A DNA stretch of 64,000 bases from Pedobacter sp. Hv1 (GTDB taxonomy: Bacteria; Bacteroidota; Bacteroidia; Sphingobacteriales; Sphingobacteriaceae), in contig NZ_LLWP01000009.1 in assembly GCF_001412215.1 (NCBI RefSeq), forward strand, positions 434,001-498,000, read 5' to 3'. The notes under the pieces are model-generated. The model was given only the letters and a program-made list of their open reading frames with translations. It was not told the DNA's origin and did not search any database. Below, in pieces: positions 49,150-52,197 of this stretch. The position numbers and the translations under genes were made by a program. Within the stretch, counting starts at the first letter, position 1, and every line of letters starts with the position of its first letter.

Positions 49150-49815
49150 ATGAAGAATTCTATTAAAATTGGCAGTTTGGTAGCTATCGTTGCTATTTTA
49201 TCTTTATGTGTAGCCATGAAAGCAAAACCTAAAAAAGTAATCTTCTTTGGCGATTCAATTACCCAGGCAGGTGTGCAAGGCAATGGTTACATCAATCTAT
49301 TGAAAAAGACTTTAGATCCTACTAAATATGAGCTGATAGGTGCTGGTATTGGTGGCAATAAAGTGTACGATCTTTATTTAAGGATGGAAGAAGATGTGTT
49401 GGCCAAAAAACCGGATCTAGTAGTCATTTATGTAGGCATTAATGATGTGTGGCATAAATTGGGTGCAAGAACAGGTACCGATTACGATAAGTACTTAAAG
49501 TTTTATCAAGCTTTGATCACTAAAATACAGGCCAATGGAAGTAAGGTGGTATTGTGTACCCCTTCTGTTATTGGCGAAAAGAAAGACGATGCCAATGAGG
49601 TTGACGCCGACTTAAACAAATATGCTGCTGGAATTAGGGAACTGGCTACCAAAAATAATTTGCCCCTTTGCGATCTGCGAAAAGCATTTACTGCTTACGA
49701 AGCAAAAAACAATACTGAAAATAAAGATAGAGGTATTTTAACCAATGATATGGTACACCTTAACGATATAGGTAACCAATTGGTAGCCGATACGATGTTG
49801 CCTTTTATTAAATAA
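49150..49815 (+). CDS. SGNH/GDSL-family hydrolase
   Basis: A 221-aa exported esterase-type protein. A signal-like N-terminus precedes block I FFGDSITQAG (nucleophile Ser36). Block III is IYVGINDVWHKLG, and block V is DMVHLNDIGNQL with the catalytic Asp and His. This is a complete catalytic set. The gene starts 8 bp after the serine hydrolase, indicating a shared transcript. SGNH hydrolases of this size often deacetylate polysaccharides or act on acyl esters. The substrate cannot be inferred. Confidence 0.9.
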   Translation: MKNSIKIGSLVAIVAILSLCVAMKAKPKKVIFFGDSITQAGVQGNGYINLLKKTLDPTKYELIGAGIGGNKVYDLYLRMEEDVLAKKPDLVVIYVGINDVWHKLGARTGTDYDKYLKFYQALITKIQANGSKVVLCTPSVIGEKKDDANEVDADLNKYAAGIRELATKNNLPLCDLRKAFTAYEAKNNTENKDRGILTNDMVHLNDIGNQLVADTMLPFIK

Positions 49816-49823
49816 TGGGTTCC

Positions 49824-49862
49824 GTCATTGCGATCCCAATTCTTATTGGGAGAAGCAATCTT
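49824..49862. repeat. Flanking repeat, left (GTCATTGCGA...GAAGCAATCTT)
   Basis: GTCATTGCGA (49824-49833), then a small hairpin TCCCAAT-TCTT-ATTGGGA, then GAAGCAATCTT. It is the mirror of 50197-50227 on the far side of the GIY-YIG ORF. Confidence 0.8.
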
Positions 49863-49880
49863 TTTTAGTAGATAAATAAT

Positions 49881-50180
49881 ATGGAACGTGGTGGAGCAGT
49901 TTATATCATTACGAATTATACACAAACAACGCTGTATACTGGAGTAACTTCAGAACTATTATTTAGAATAAAAGAACATAGAGAAAAAATTTATCCCAAT
50001 TCTTTCTCGGCAAAATATAAATTGACCAGATTGGTTTATTTTTGCTTTTATCAAACAATAGATGAAGCAATTGCCGAAGAAAAAAGGATAAAGGGCGGAA
50101 GTAGGGCAAAAAAGATAAAATTAATACAAGATATGAATCCTGATTGGAGGGTTTTATGGGAAGAGGTGAAAGAATGGTGA
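49881..50180 (+). CDS. Small GIY-YIG endonuclease-family protein
   Basis: A 99-aa protein consisting only of a GIY-YIG nuclease domain. Motifs are VYIITN followed by LYTGVT (GIY and YIG variants), the catalytic Arg region in LLFRIKEH, and the Glu in IAEEKRIKGGSRAKK. This matches the compact UPF0213-like group of unknown substrate. The ORF is bordered by two inverted copies of a repeat with GTCATTGCGA and GAAGCAATCT ends (49824-49862 and 50197-50227). In between there is room for nothing else, so ORF plus repeats may be a mobile or domesticated unit inserted between the GDSL gene and dnaG. Activity is unproven. Confidence 0.85.
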   Translation: MERGGAVYIITNYTQTTLYTGVTSELLFRIKEHREKIYPNSFSAKYKLTRLVYFCFYQTIDEAIAEEKRIKGGSRAKKIKLIQDMNPDWRVLWEEVKEW

Positions 50181-50196
50181 ATAAGTTTACTGGCAA

Positions 50197-50227
50197 AGAT
50201 TGCTTCGTCGTTCCTTCTCGCAATGAC
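50197..50227. repeat. Flanking repeat, right (inverted)
   Basis: AGATTGCTTCGTCGTTCCTTCTCGCAATGAC. Its first 10 bases and last 10 bases are the complements of the ends of the left repeat. The string is familiar from dispersed repeats in many bacterial genomes. It ends 11 bp before the dnaG start. Confidence 0.8.
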
Positions 50228-50238
50228 GATAAAAGATT

Positions 50239-52197
50239 ATGATCAACCGTGAAACAATAGACAAAATAATGGATACTGCCCGTATTGAAGAGGTGGTAGG
50301 TGATTTTGTACATTTAAAAAAACGCGGAACAAGCTTAATTGGCAATTGTCCGTTCCATGGAGAGAAAACCCCTTCGTTCCATGTTTCTGTAACCAAAGGA
50401 ATCTATAAATGTTTTGGCTGCGGTAAGGGTGGAGATTCGGTGCGCTTTATCATGGAGCACGAGAAATACTCCTATCCAGAAGCACTTAAATTTTTAGCGC
50501 AAAAATACAATATCGAGGTTGAAGAAACCGTAGAGACCGTTCAAGATGTAGAAGCCCAAAATGCGAGAGAAAGTTTATATATCGTTTCGCAATTTGCGGC
50601 CAACTATTTTGAAGAACAACTTTGGAATGGAGATGAAGGCAGGGCAATAGGGCTAAGCTATTTCAAGGAACGTGGTTTTAGGGAAGACATTGTAAAGAAG
50701 TTTAACCTTGGCTATTCTCCCGACGTTTGGGATGCATTGACCCAAAATGCAATTAAAAATAAACATGCCGAAGAATACCTGGAGAAAACAGGTCTGGCCA
50801 TCAGAAATGACAAAGGACAGCTTTTCGATAGGTTTAGAGGTAGGGTAATGTTCCCTATTCATAATTTTACTGGTAGGGTAATTGGTTTTGGTGGGCGTAC
50901 TTTAAAAACCGATAAAAAGGTTGCCAAGTATGTCAATTCTCCAGAGAGTGAGATCTACCATAAATCGAATGTGCTGTATGGTTTGTTCCATGCTAAAAAG
51001 GCCATTCGCGAGTTAGATAATTGTTACTTGGTAGAAGGCTATGCCGATGTTTTGGCGGTCCATCAAGCACATATAGAAAATGTGGTGGCCTCTTCAGGTA
51101 CCTCTTTAACTATTGAACAGATCCGTTTAATTGGTCGTTTTACGCAAAACGTAACTATTTTATACGATGGAGATGCGGCAGGGATCAAGGCCTCTTTGCG
51201 TGGCTTGGACATGATCTTGGAGGAAGGCCTAAATGTAAAAGTAGTCTCTTTCCCGGCAGGTGATGACCCTGATTCTTACATGCATAAAGTAGGTGCAGGA
51301 GAGTTTAAAAACTATATAGAAAATAACCGCAAAGATTTTATTTTATATAAGGCAAATATCCTTTTAGCAGAAGCAGGTACCGACCCCATAAAAAGGGCAG
51401 GCATTATTCGAGATATTGTAGAAAGTATTGCCAAAATTCCAGATAACATTAAGGCATCAGTGTTTATTCGCGAGTGCAGTAATTTACTGGCTATAGAAGA
51501 ACGTATTTTACTGAGCGAGCTCAATACCATGCGGGCTGCCAAGCTGAAAAAAAGCATACAACCTTCTACTAGACCACACCAGCAGCAGCAACAATATCAG
51601 GATATGCCACCCGATAACCTGTTTGCGGATGATGGACCAACAGTAGAGGTACCAGCACAAGTTGTTTCAAATGATGAACTCCAAGAACAAGAGATTGTTC
51701 GTTTGTTATTAGCTTTTGGCCACGAATTGGTAAGTTGGGATAAGATCGATAACATGTACATCGGTTCATTTATCATCCAAAACCTAACAGATGTAACATT
51801 TGAAAATGCGATTTGTAAGAAAATAATTGACCATTACCGATTAGAAATAGAAAATGGCCAATTGCCAACCGCCAATCAGTTTATCAAAAGCCAGGATAGG
51901 GAAATTGCAGATTTGGCAATTACCTTGTCTACTTCGCCCTATACATTGAGCGAAAATTGGTACAACAAGCACAACATTTATGTGCGTGATGAAACCATGA
52001 ATTTAAAAGCGACCATTTTGGGGGGACTTTATCACCTTAAAAAAAGAAAGGTAGATCGCATTTTATTTGACCTGCTAAACGAGATCAAACTAGAACCAGA
52101 TGCTGTAAACCAGGAGATTTTAATGCAACGTTATGCCTTTATCAAAAATGTAGAAAAAGAAATTTCTAGGTTTTTGGGTTCTGTAATTGTAAAATAG
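50239..52197 (+). CDS. dnaG: DNA primase DnaG
   Basis: A 652-aa primase that makes RNA primers at the replication fork. The zinc-binding domain has Cys37, His40, Cys58 and Cys61 (NCPFHGEKTPSF and KCFGCGKGGD). The Toprim catalytic core carries the acidic Glu of LVEGYADVLAVHQ and the DxD-like YDGDAAGIKA. A Gln-rich linker follows around residue 445 and the C-terminal helicase-interaction domain lies beyond it. The start is the ATG at 50239, 11 bp after the right flank of the repeat unit. The yraN gene follows after 2 nt. Confidence 0.97.
   Translation: MINRETIDKIMDTARIEEVVGDFVHLKKRGTSLIGNCPFHGEKTPSFHVSVTKGIYKCFGCGKGGDSVRFIMEHEKYSYPEALKFLAQKYNIEVEETVETVQDVEAQNARESLYIVSQFAANYFEEQLWNGDEGRAIGLSYFKERGFREDIVKKFNLGYSPDVWDALTQNAIKNKHAEEYLEKTGLAIRNDKGQLFDRFRGRVMFPIHNFTGRVIGFGGRTLKTDKKVAKYVNSPESEIYHKSNVLYGLFHAKKAIRELDNCYLVEGYADVLAVHQAHIENVVASSGTSLTIEQIRLIGRFTQNVTILYDGDAAGIKASLRGLDMILEEGLNVKVVSFPAGDDPDSYMHKVGAGEFKNYIENNRKDFILYKANILLAEAGTDPIKRAGIIRDIVESIAKIPDNIKASVFIRECSNLLAIEERILLSELNTMRAAKLKKSIQPSTRPHQQQQQYQDMPPDNLFADDGPTVEVPAQVVSNDELQEQEIVRLLLAFGHELVSWDKIDNMYIGSFIIQNLTDVTFENAICKKIIDHYRLEIENGQLPTANQFIKSQDREIADLAITLSTSPYTLSENWYNKHNIYVRDETMNLKATILGGLYHLKKRKVDRILFDLLNEIKLEPDAVNQEILMQRYAFIKNVEKEISRFLGSVIVK

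Follow-up and report, generated by a model that had tools for sequence, protein, structure and literature searches.

An intergenic GIY-YIG nuclease gene framed by inverted CGTC-type repeats: a probable REP-like pair with its own nuclease

Introduction

Why should a small nuclease gene stand alone between two inverted copies of a repeat? The question is raised by a locus in the 64,000-nucleotide stretch of the Pedobacter sp. Hv1 genome analysed here (the window), in which a 99-aa ORF with a GIY-YIG nuclease domain (49881-50180, plus strand) lies between a GDSL-like hydrolase ORF (49150-49815, plus strand) and dnaG (50239-52197, plus strand). Both neighbours serve below as site markers in relatives; their names are provisional, coming from an earlier sequence-only reading. 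That reading inferred a nuclease-repeat unit that may be mobile, comparable in principle to RAYT-REP. In RAYT/REPIN systems (REP-associated tyrosine transposases) a small HUH/Y1 enzyme gene, found mostly at conserved sites, is flanked by inverted hairpins with the tag GTAG; many pairs lack the gene, and different repeats have different enzymes.

A second point of reference is the superfamily of CGTC-tagged REPs described by Di Nocera, De Gregorio and Rocco in 2013 (PMC3733652), for which they report no dedicated transposase. These repeats are defined by the tag CGTC (also TGTC or CCTC), an AT stem start and a CCA tail, have stems of 8-9 bp, form inverted dimers and fall into four published families; the term 'GIY-YIG' is absent from the main text of the paper.

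Anatomy of the unit

As had been claimed from the sequence, inverted repeat copies enclose the 99-aa ORF as their sole content. The whole unit, measured from outer CGTC tag to outer CGTC tag, spans 406 bp (49823-50228, no strand assigned) with its tags outward, CGTC reading into the unit from each outer end. The left arm (49823-49861, plus strand; CGTCATTGCGATCCCAATTCTTATTGGGAGAAGCAATCT) has a CGTC tag, an outer stem ATTGC/GCAAT, an extra inner hairpin and the tail CT, and the right arm (50197-50228, minus strand; in minus-strand reading CGTCATTGCGAGAAGGAACGACGAAGCAATCT) has the same tag, stem and tail. Folded as single-stranded DNA, the left arm forms the outer 5-bp stem and an inner 7-bp stem (-8.7 kcal/mol, z = -3.4), and the small additional hairpin that the sequence-only reading had noticed in the left repeat is real. 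The right arm alone has no significant fold (z = -1.1) and is a weak hairpin by itself. Across the 64 kb of the window, the two arms are the only copies of the pattern GTCATTGCGA-N(1-28)-GAAGCAATC.

When these arms are compared with the CGTC-REPs as characterized in PMC3733652, they fit the tag, the AT start and the inverted-dimer organisation, but their tail is CT, not CCA, and a stem of 8-9 bp is doubtful: the outer stem has 5 bp, with an inner hairpin in the left arm, and the right arm alone does not form such a stem significantly. Judged by their sequence, the arms are better called a variant of the CGTC-REP superfamily than a member of one of its published families.

The nuclease and its relatives

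The window protein matches PF01541 (GIY-YIG) at E = 1e-11, with 45.4 bits against a cut-off of 22.6. Y8, Y19, G21, R29, H33, E67 and N86 are among the residues invariant across 42 sequences, and the conserved Y, Y-x-G, R, E and N of GIY-YIG domains are present. No NCBIfam model matches at E <= 0.001, and a phage or defence gene was rejected on the lack of any PHROGs or PADLOC match at the same threshold. The fold was predicted confidently, with a pLDDT of 89.4. No Foldseek match to this model reached E <= 0.001; the best was UPF0213 protein BH0048 (1zg2, E = 0.008), followed by Slx1, with UvrC lower, and the top matches are GIY-YIG proteins with probabilities of 0.98-1.00 and a TM of about 0.5. 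At the sequence level the match to 1zg2 is weak (E = 0.73). The window protein is accordingly predicted to have its fold in common with GIY-YIG domains of the UPF0213/UvrC type, but it differs from them in this weak sequence match and in its repeats, which six paralogue loci in the genus lack.

A relative, an ORF of Neisseria gonorrhoeae, is 40.7% identical to the window protein over 92%, and may be Ssn. Ssn is described as a GIY-YIG family of Neisseria and others that cuts single-stranded DNA site-specifically at a repeated target and affects transformation. If so, the window gene presumably belongs to this family; GIY-YIG family and small size are common to both, and the N. gonorrhoeae relative lies among CGTC-tagged hairpins. 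No earlier link between GIY-YIG proteins and REPs was recognised in the literature covered, which is weak evidence. In PMC9465073, 'GIY-YIG' and 'repetitive extragenic palindrom-' occur once each.

Linkage to tagged hairpins in the genus

The proposed unit would have been refuted by repeats no more frequent near GIY-YIG genes than elsewhere. For this comparison 126 congeneric relatives were fetched, some fragments, some tandem copies and some lower-scoring matches being left out; 16 in which the ORF motif was not found were dropped, leaving 110, a few of which overlap each other as tandem copies. The scan demanded a CT tail, a rule set after inspection of the repeats of the genus. A GTC-tagged hairpin lies within 250 bp at 95 of the 110 located relatives (on both sides at 70, on one side at 25), and 15 have none. 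The best other three-base tag, out of 64, is both-sided at only 4 of 110 loci. Within 100 bp of the GIY-YIG genes of this subfamily there are 6.1 hairpins per kb, and at 900-1000 bp only 0.19 per kb, so the refutation fails. In the two-sided loci the nearest arms face tags-outward in only 31 of 70, because arms often sit in arrays. None of six loci of more distant GIY-YIG paralogues in the genus, including that of the window's own genome, has GTC hairpins.

These data bear on the simplest alternative, in which a common intergenic repeat stands by chance next to a GIY-YIG gene of the ordinary repair type. Repeats are indeed abundant in some genomes, with up to 238 copies per genome by the GTCATTGCGA-N(1-28)-GAAGCAATC pattern, but the distance decay, the tag ranking and the paralogue controls contradict chance association, which we consider ruled out for all practical purposes.

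Repeat abundance and Y1 transposases

A genome-wide search for the repeat with and without the ORF, which the sequence-only reading had proposed, found both forms: the window's own genome holds seven copies of the pattern, with no match to the same pattern backwards, and it has two inverted pairs of the repeat, tags outward, that leave no room for an ORF between them. Such ORF-less pairs look like the same element minus its gene. Across the genus the pattern is present in 70 of 119 genomes, the backward control giving one match across all of them. The ATTGC repeat occurs in 60 of the 61 genomes with a strong GIY-YIG relative, the remaining one having zero copies, versus 10 of the 58 without, one of which carries 91. 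This co-occurrence may be caused by shared ancestry. Y1_Tnp co-occurs with the repeat almost as strongly (63 of 68 genomes with a match versus 7 of 51 without), yet is unlinked to it in the loci scored; genome-level co-occurrence is therefore untrustworthy alone, that of the GIY-YIG gene included, and the case for a partnership rests on linkage and stem matching.

It was nevertheless plausible from these figures that a Y1/HUH transposase (RAYT) mobilises the repeats and that the GIY-YIG gene is a passenger, Y1_Tnp being found in 63 of the 70 genomes that carry the repeat and in 8 of the 10 among these that lack a strong GIY-YIG relative. The Y1 loci themselves do not bear this out. Fifty were fetched from the same genomes, and after exclusion of three at contig edges and one 2-base placeholder, 46 were scored, five of which are the same genes counted twice. 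By the rule that gave 70 two-sided and 25 one-sided loci of 110 for the GIY-YIG gene, GTC hairpins flank none of the 46 on both sides and one on one side; 45 of 46 lack such a hairpin nearby, and the repeat-flanked enzyme gene is GIY-YIG rather than the HUH/Y1 gene expected of a RAYT/REPtron. Furthermore, Y1_Tnp has no match in seven of the genomes with repeats, including one that carries 82, and tyrosine transposase genes are reported in PMC3733652 not to be flanked by CGTC repeats. Mobilisation by Y1/RAYT was rejected on the linkage at the Y1 loci scored, and we regard it as highly unlikely.

Nuclease clades and repeat stems

Of 57 genomes in which a locus could be labelled by its stem, 23 contain nucleases whose stems differ. 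The window's own genome is one of these: the window copy has the stem ATTGC, and a second copy, 57% identical to it and located on another contig, has ACCCT. When 14 stem groups, 'none' included, were mapped on a tree of 103 nucleases (7 of the 110, shorter than 80 aa, were left out), the stem label changed 30 times versus a mean of 66.8 for shuffled labels, and none of 200 shuffles was as low. The tree has many unresolved forks, and near-copies aid clustering. With the caveat that this is a correlation between sequences and no more, each repeat type appears to have its own enzyme, and the corresponding RAYT/REPtron criterion would be fulfilled. Trp73 is missing from all 35 nucleases whose stem is of the -TGC kind, among them the window copy, but present in 52 of 55 with other stems; the pattern is largely that of one clade and is therefore only a lead.

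Relatives beyond the genus

When 84,980 species genomes were scanned with an alignment of 22 sequences, at least 578 relatives emerged, of which the best 80 were kept; ranking by an Azospirillum sequence makes this set lean to Proteobacteria. The record titles of these best 80 of 578 include alpha-, beta-, gamma- and deltaproteobacteria, Bacteroidetes, Anaerolineae, Omnitrophus, Nitrospiraceae, Armatimonadetes, Acetothermia and several candidate phyla. Tagged hairpins were found at 64 of these 80 loci, on both sides at 50 and on one side at 14, with none at 16. GTC again ranks first of 64 tags in the best 80 of 578, the median tag giving 2 two-sided and 10 one-sided loci. Part of the 14 one-sided loci may therefore be chance, and three of them (L197, L240 and L250) look like it. 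TGG, which ranks second, is the tail CCA read on the opposite strand and thus the other end of the same hairpin. By eye, and unscored, many of the 16 misses have hairpins of this kind whose stems pair imperfectly or which have a GTGTCCCGG-type start.

This wider scan had no tail rule, and none of the consensus bases that emerged from the 114 nearest arms at the best 80 of 578 loci was demanded by it: T (0.48) or C (0.46) before GTC, a stem that starts with A (0.93) T (0.89) and has a variable middle, and a tail of C (0.97) C (0.88) A (0.94). Tags point outward in 38 of the 50 two-sided loci of this set. The CGTC-REPs of PMC3733652 share with these repeats the CGTC/TGTC tag, the AT stem start, a short unpaired tail and dimers in opposite orientation; their CCA tail is the one found at the best 80 of 578 wider loci, and Azospirillum lipoferum, Novosphingobium aromaticivorans, Sinorhizobium meliloti, Neisseria and Bradyrhizobium are common to both.

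Plasmid records with a relative numbered 33, of which 13 were inspected. CGTC/TGTC-type hairpins, scored or seen by eye, enclose the gene or lie beside it in Neorhizobium, Shinella, Sinorhizobium, Rhizobium sp. CIAT894, Azospirillum, Novosphingobium (by eye), Sphingobium, Neisseria gonorrhoeae and Aeromonas, and lie on one side only, about 180 bp away, on a Photobacterium plasmid. Spirosoma and Planktothrix plasmids have looser GTCAT repeats, seen by eye. Rhizobium tumorigenes has no GTC-tagged hairpin at the gene and a CCTC-tagged pair 200-350 bp downstream. The Planktothrix relative (L080) is situated between an MmeI-type restriction enzyme gene and the DISARM gene drmA, among GTCATTCTGAG..GAATCTC repeats.

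Presence and absence at orthologous sites

The presence of the ORF at this site in all relatives would also have spoken against a mobile unit. The interval upstream of dnaG was inspected in 110 of 119 congeneric genomes, nine being left out. Comparison of the GDSL-dnaG interval disposes of this objection: 13 of the 110, the window's own genome included, have the ORF upstream of dnaG and on its strand, 12 of the 13 with hairpins by the rule used; 7 have a hairpin and no ORF, and 90 have neither. Among the seven, five (G001, G089, G094, G095 and G106) have ATTGC pairs or arrays beside the GDSL gene with no ORF at the site, G015 has hairpins and a GDSL neighbour that was not recognised, and the hairpin of G101 (stem CAAAT) was counted as spurious.

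Several further features of this interval were observed. A different inverted sequence of repeat-like character, with one C-rich end and its G-rich complement at the other, is present in four ORF-less GDSL-dnaG intervals (L273, L278, L279 and L282). In G115 two tandem nuclease ORFs encoding identical proteins (L023, L087) stand upstream of dnaG among repeats. Where the nuclease gene directly precedes dnaG on the same strand (49881-50239 in the window), expression together with that of the primase could be relevant to a nuclease acting on single strands.

Relatives of at least 70% identity occur in 14 other genomes, 12 of which have the gene at the same site upstream of dnaG, so the window copy does not stem from a recent hop; the relatives in the remaining two, G106 and G037, are found elsewhere, each broken by a stop codon. 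More generally, 32 of the 33 nuclease pairs with at least 90% identity occupy a common site, as do 68 of 88 pairs at 80-90% and 104 of 295 at 70-80%. Near-identical nucleases are thus almost always at one site, and the gene is not seen to jump. Roughly 42 nuclease sites were counted in the genus, a rough figure because loci sharing a one-sided neighbour only were merged. Precise insertion, excision or target duplication was not found in the genus, where intergenic flanks are too diverged. As judged from these comparisons, the behaviour of the gene is closer to that of a RAYT passed on vertically than to that of an active IS, and it seems to move rarely while the repeats are many. The suggestion of a nuclease-repeat unit that may be mobile is supported, with the correction that the window copy did not arrive by a recent hop; mobility itself remains an inference.

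Two sets of plasmids offer closer comparisons. In Azospirillum lipoferum the ORF and two repeat pairs separate sufB from sufC (L078:1369-1987). Although 22 plasmid records match this suf region, only A. lipoferum itself covers at least 80% of it. Three aligned relatives with flanks about 95-96% identical have no ORF and, by eye, no REP at the sufB-sufC site; the junction of the empty site could not be resolved to the base, and no target duplication was found. The Sphingobium site is spanned by 11 plasmid records, 7 of which have the ORF region (TomTYG73 in two pieces). Three of the four ORF-less Sphingobium sites were aligned, one further such site and one Azospirillum site being left unaligned. 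Two of the three have a single fused palindrome with a CGTC tag at either end, which looks like the product of a collapse of the two arms onto each other, and one has no REP. The fused palindrome is a possible excision footprint, the direction of loss or gain not being proven. With respect to a transposon or IS, ORF-less sites exist and their junctions cannot be fixed to the base.

Sites without the ORF, together with the fact that GIY-YIG is a homing-endonuclease fold, might also point to a homing endonuclease that stands free and inserts copies of itself between genes. However, the ORF is intergenic and lies between two repeat arms, with no intron or intein seen, which is not the location expected of a homing endonuclease, and the constant partner of the gene is a repeat rather than one target site, given the roughly 42 sites in the genus. 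Homing in the intron or intein sense has no support and was rejected; we consider the free-standing variant very improbable.

A further rival is a host-side role, in which the nuclease cuts the repeats and thereby limits or shapes uptake and integration of single-stranded DNA, or clears hairpins, without spreading anything; the repeats would then spread by replication slippage, recombination or another enzyme. Near-identical genes that stay put at one site and the thirteen genomes that keep the gene upstream of dnaG fit such a role, as would Ssn of Neisseria, described as a single-strand DNA nuclease that modulates natural transformation via a repeated target. On its own, however, a host-side role leaves unexplained why the gene sits among its repeats at most of the loci examined and why single genomes hold several nucleases with different stems. 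We consider it a genuine possibility, though one clearly short of an even chance.

Discussion

What we observe at this locus and its relatives is the anatomy of the unit, its linkage, the association of clade with stem, presence and absence at orthologous sites, intact GIY-YIG residues and a predicted fold. The explanation that we think probable is that the unit is a CGTC-type REP pair with its own nuclease gene, that the protein is a dedicated hairpin nuclease, and that the two lead a RAYT/REPIN-like life. The analogy drawn by the sequence-only reading suits the genome organisation well: a gene for a small enzyme between tagged hairpins in inverted orientation, numerous gene-less pairs, many repeats and few nucleases, genes mostly at conserved sites, and different enzymes for different repeats. 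The difference lies in the enzyme and the tag, GIY-YIG and YGTC here in place of HUH/Y1 and GTAG.

Under this explanation, the GIY-YIG protein would recognise the YGTC-tagged hairpin, most likely as single-stranded DNA supplied by the lagging-strand template or by transforming or repair DNA, and would cut beside the tag, each nuclease clade being adapted to a particular stem. The gene together with its two flanking arms would be the autonomous form, and ORF-less inverted pairs the non-autonomous, REPIN-like form. Over evolutionary time, cutting might let repeats spread, amplify in tandem and collapse arm-to-arm, while the gene or whole unit itself would move only rarely. Hairpin recognition, cleavage, cleavage-driven spread of the repeats and mobility are all inferred, and neither cleavage nor transposition has been shown.

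A broader proposal is that the GIY-YIG protein is the transposase-equivalent of the CGTC-REPs, that is, a non-HUH, hydrolytic single-strand nuclease that disseminates REPs over many phyla by an independent second chemistry. We advance this tentatively, as something that falls just below an even chance. If Ssn acts as described above, the biochemistry has already been worked out for one relative, and what is added here is the link to CGTC-REPs, the matching of stems and the RAYT-like history.

An enzyme gene that travels with CGTC-tagged REPs can now be named and tested. If the nuclease does spread the repeats, the REP lifestyle would have arisen on the basis of two nuclease chemistries that are unrelated. 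Should it do no more than cut them, the matched nuclease and stem pairs of many genera would still represent a set of nucleases with predictable targets.
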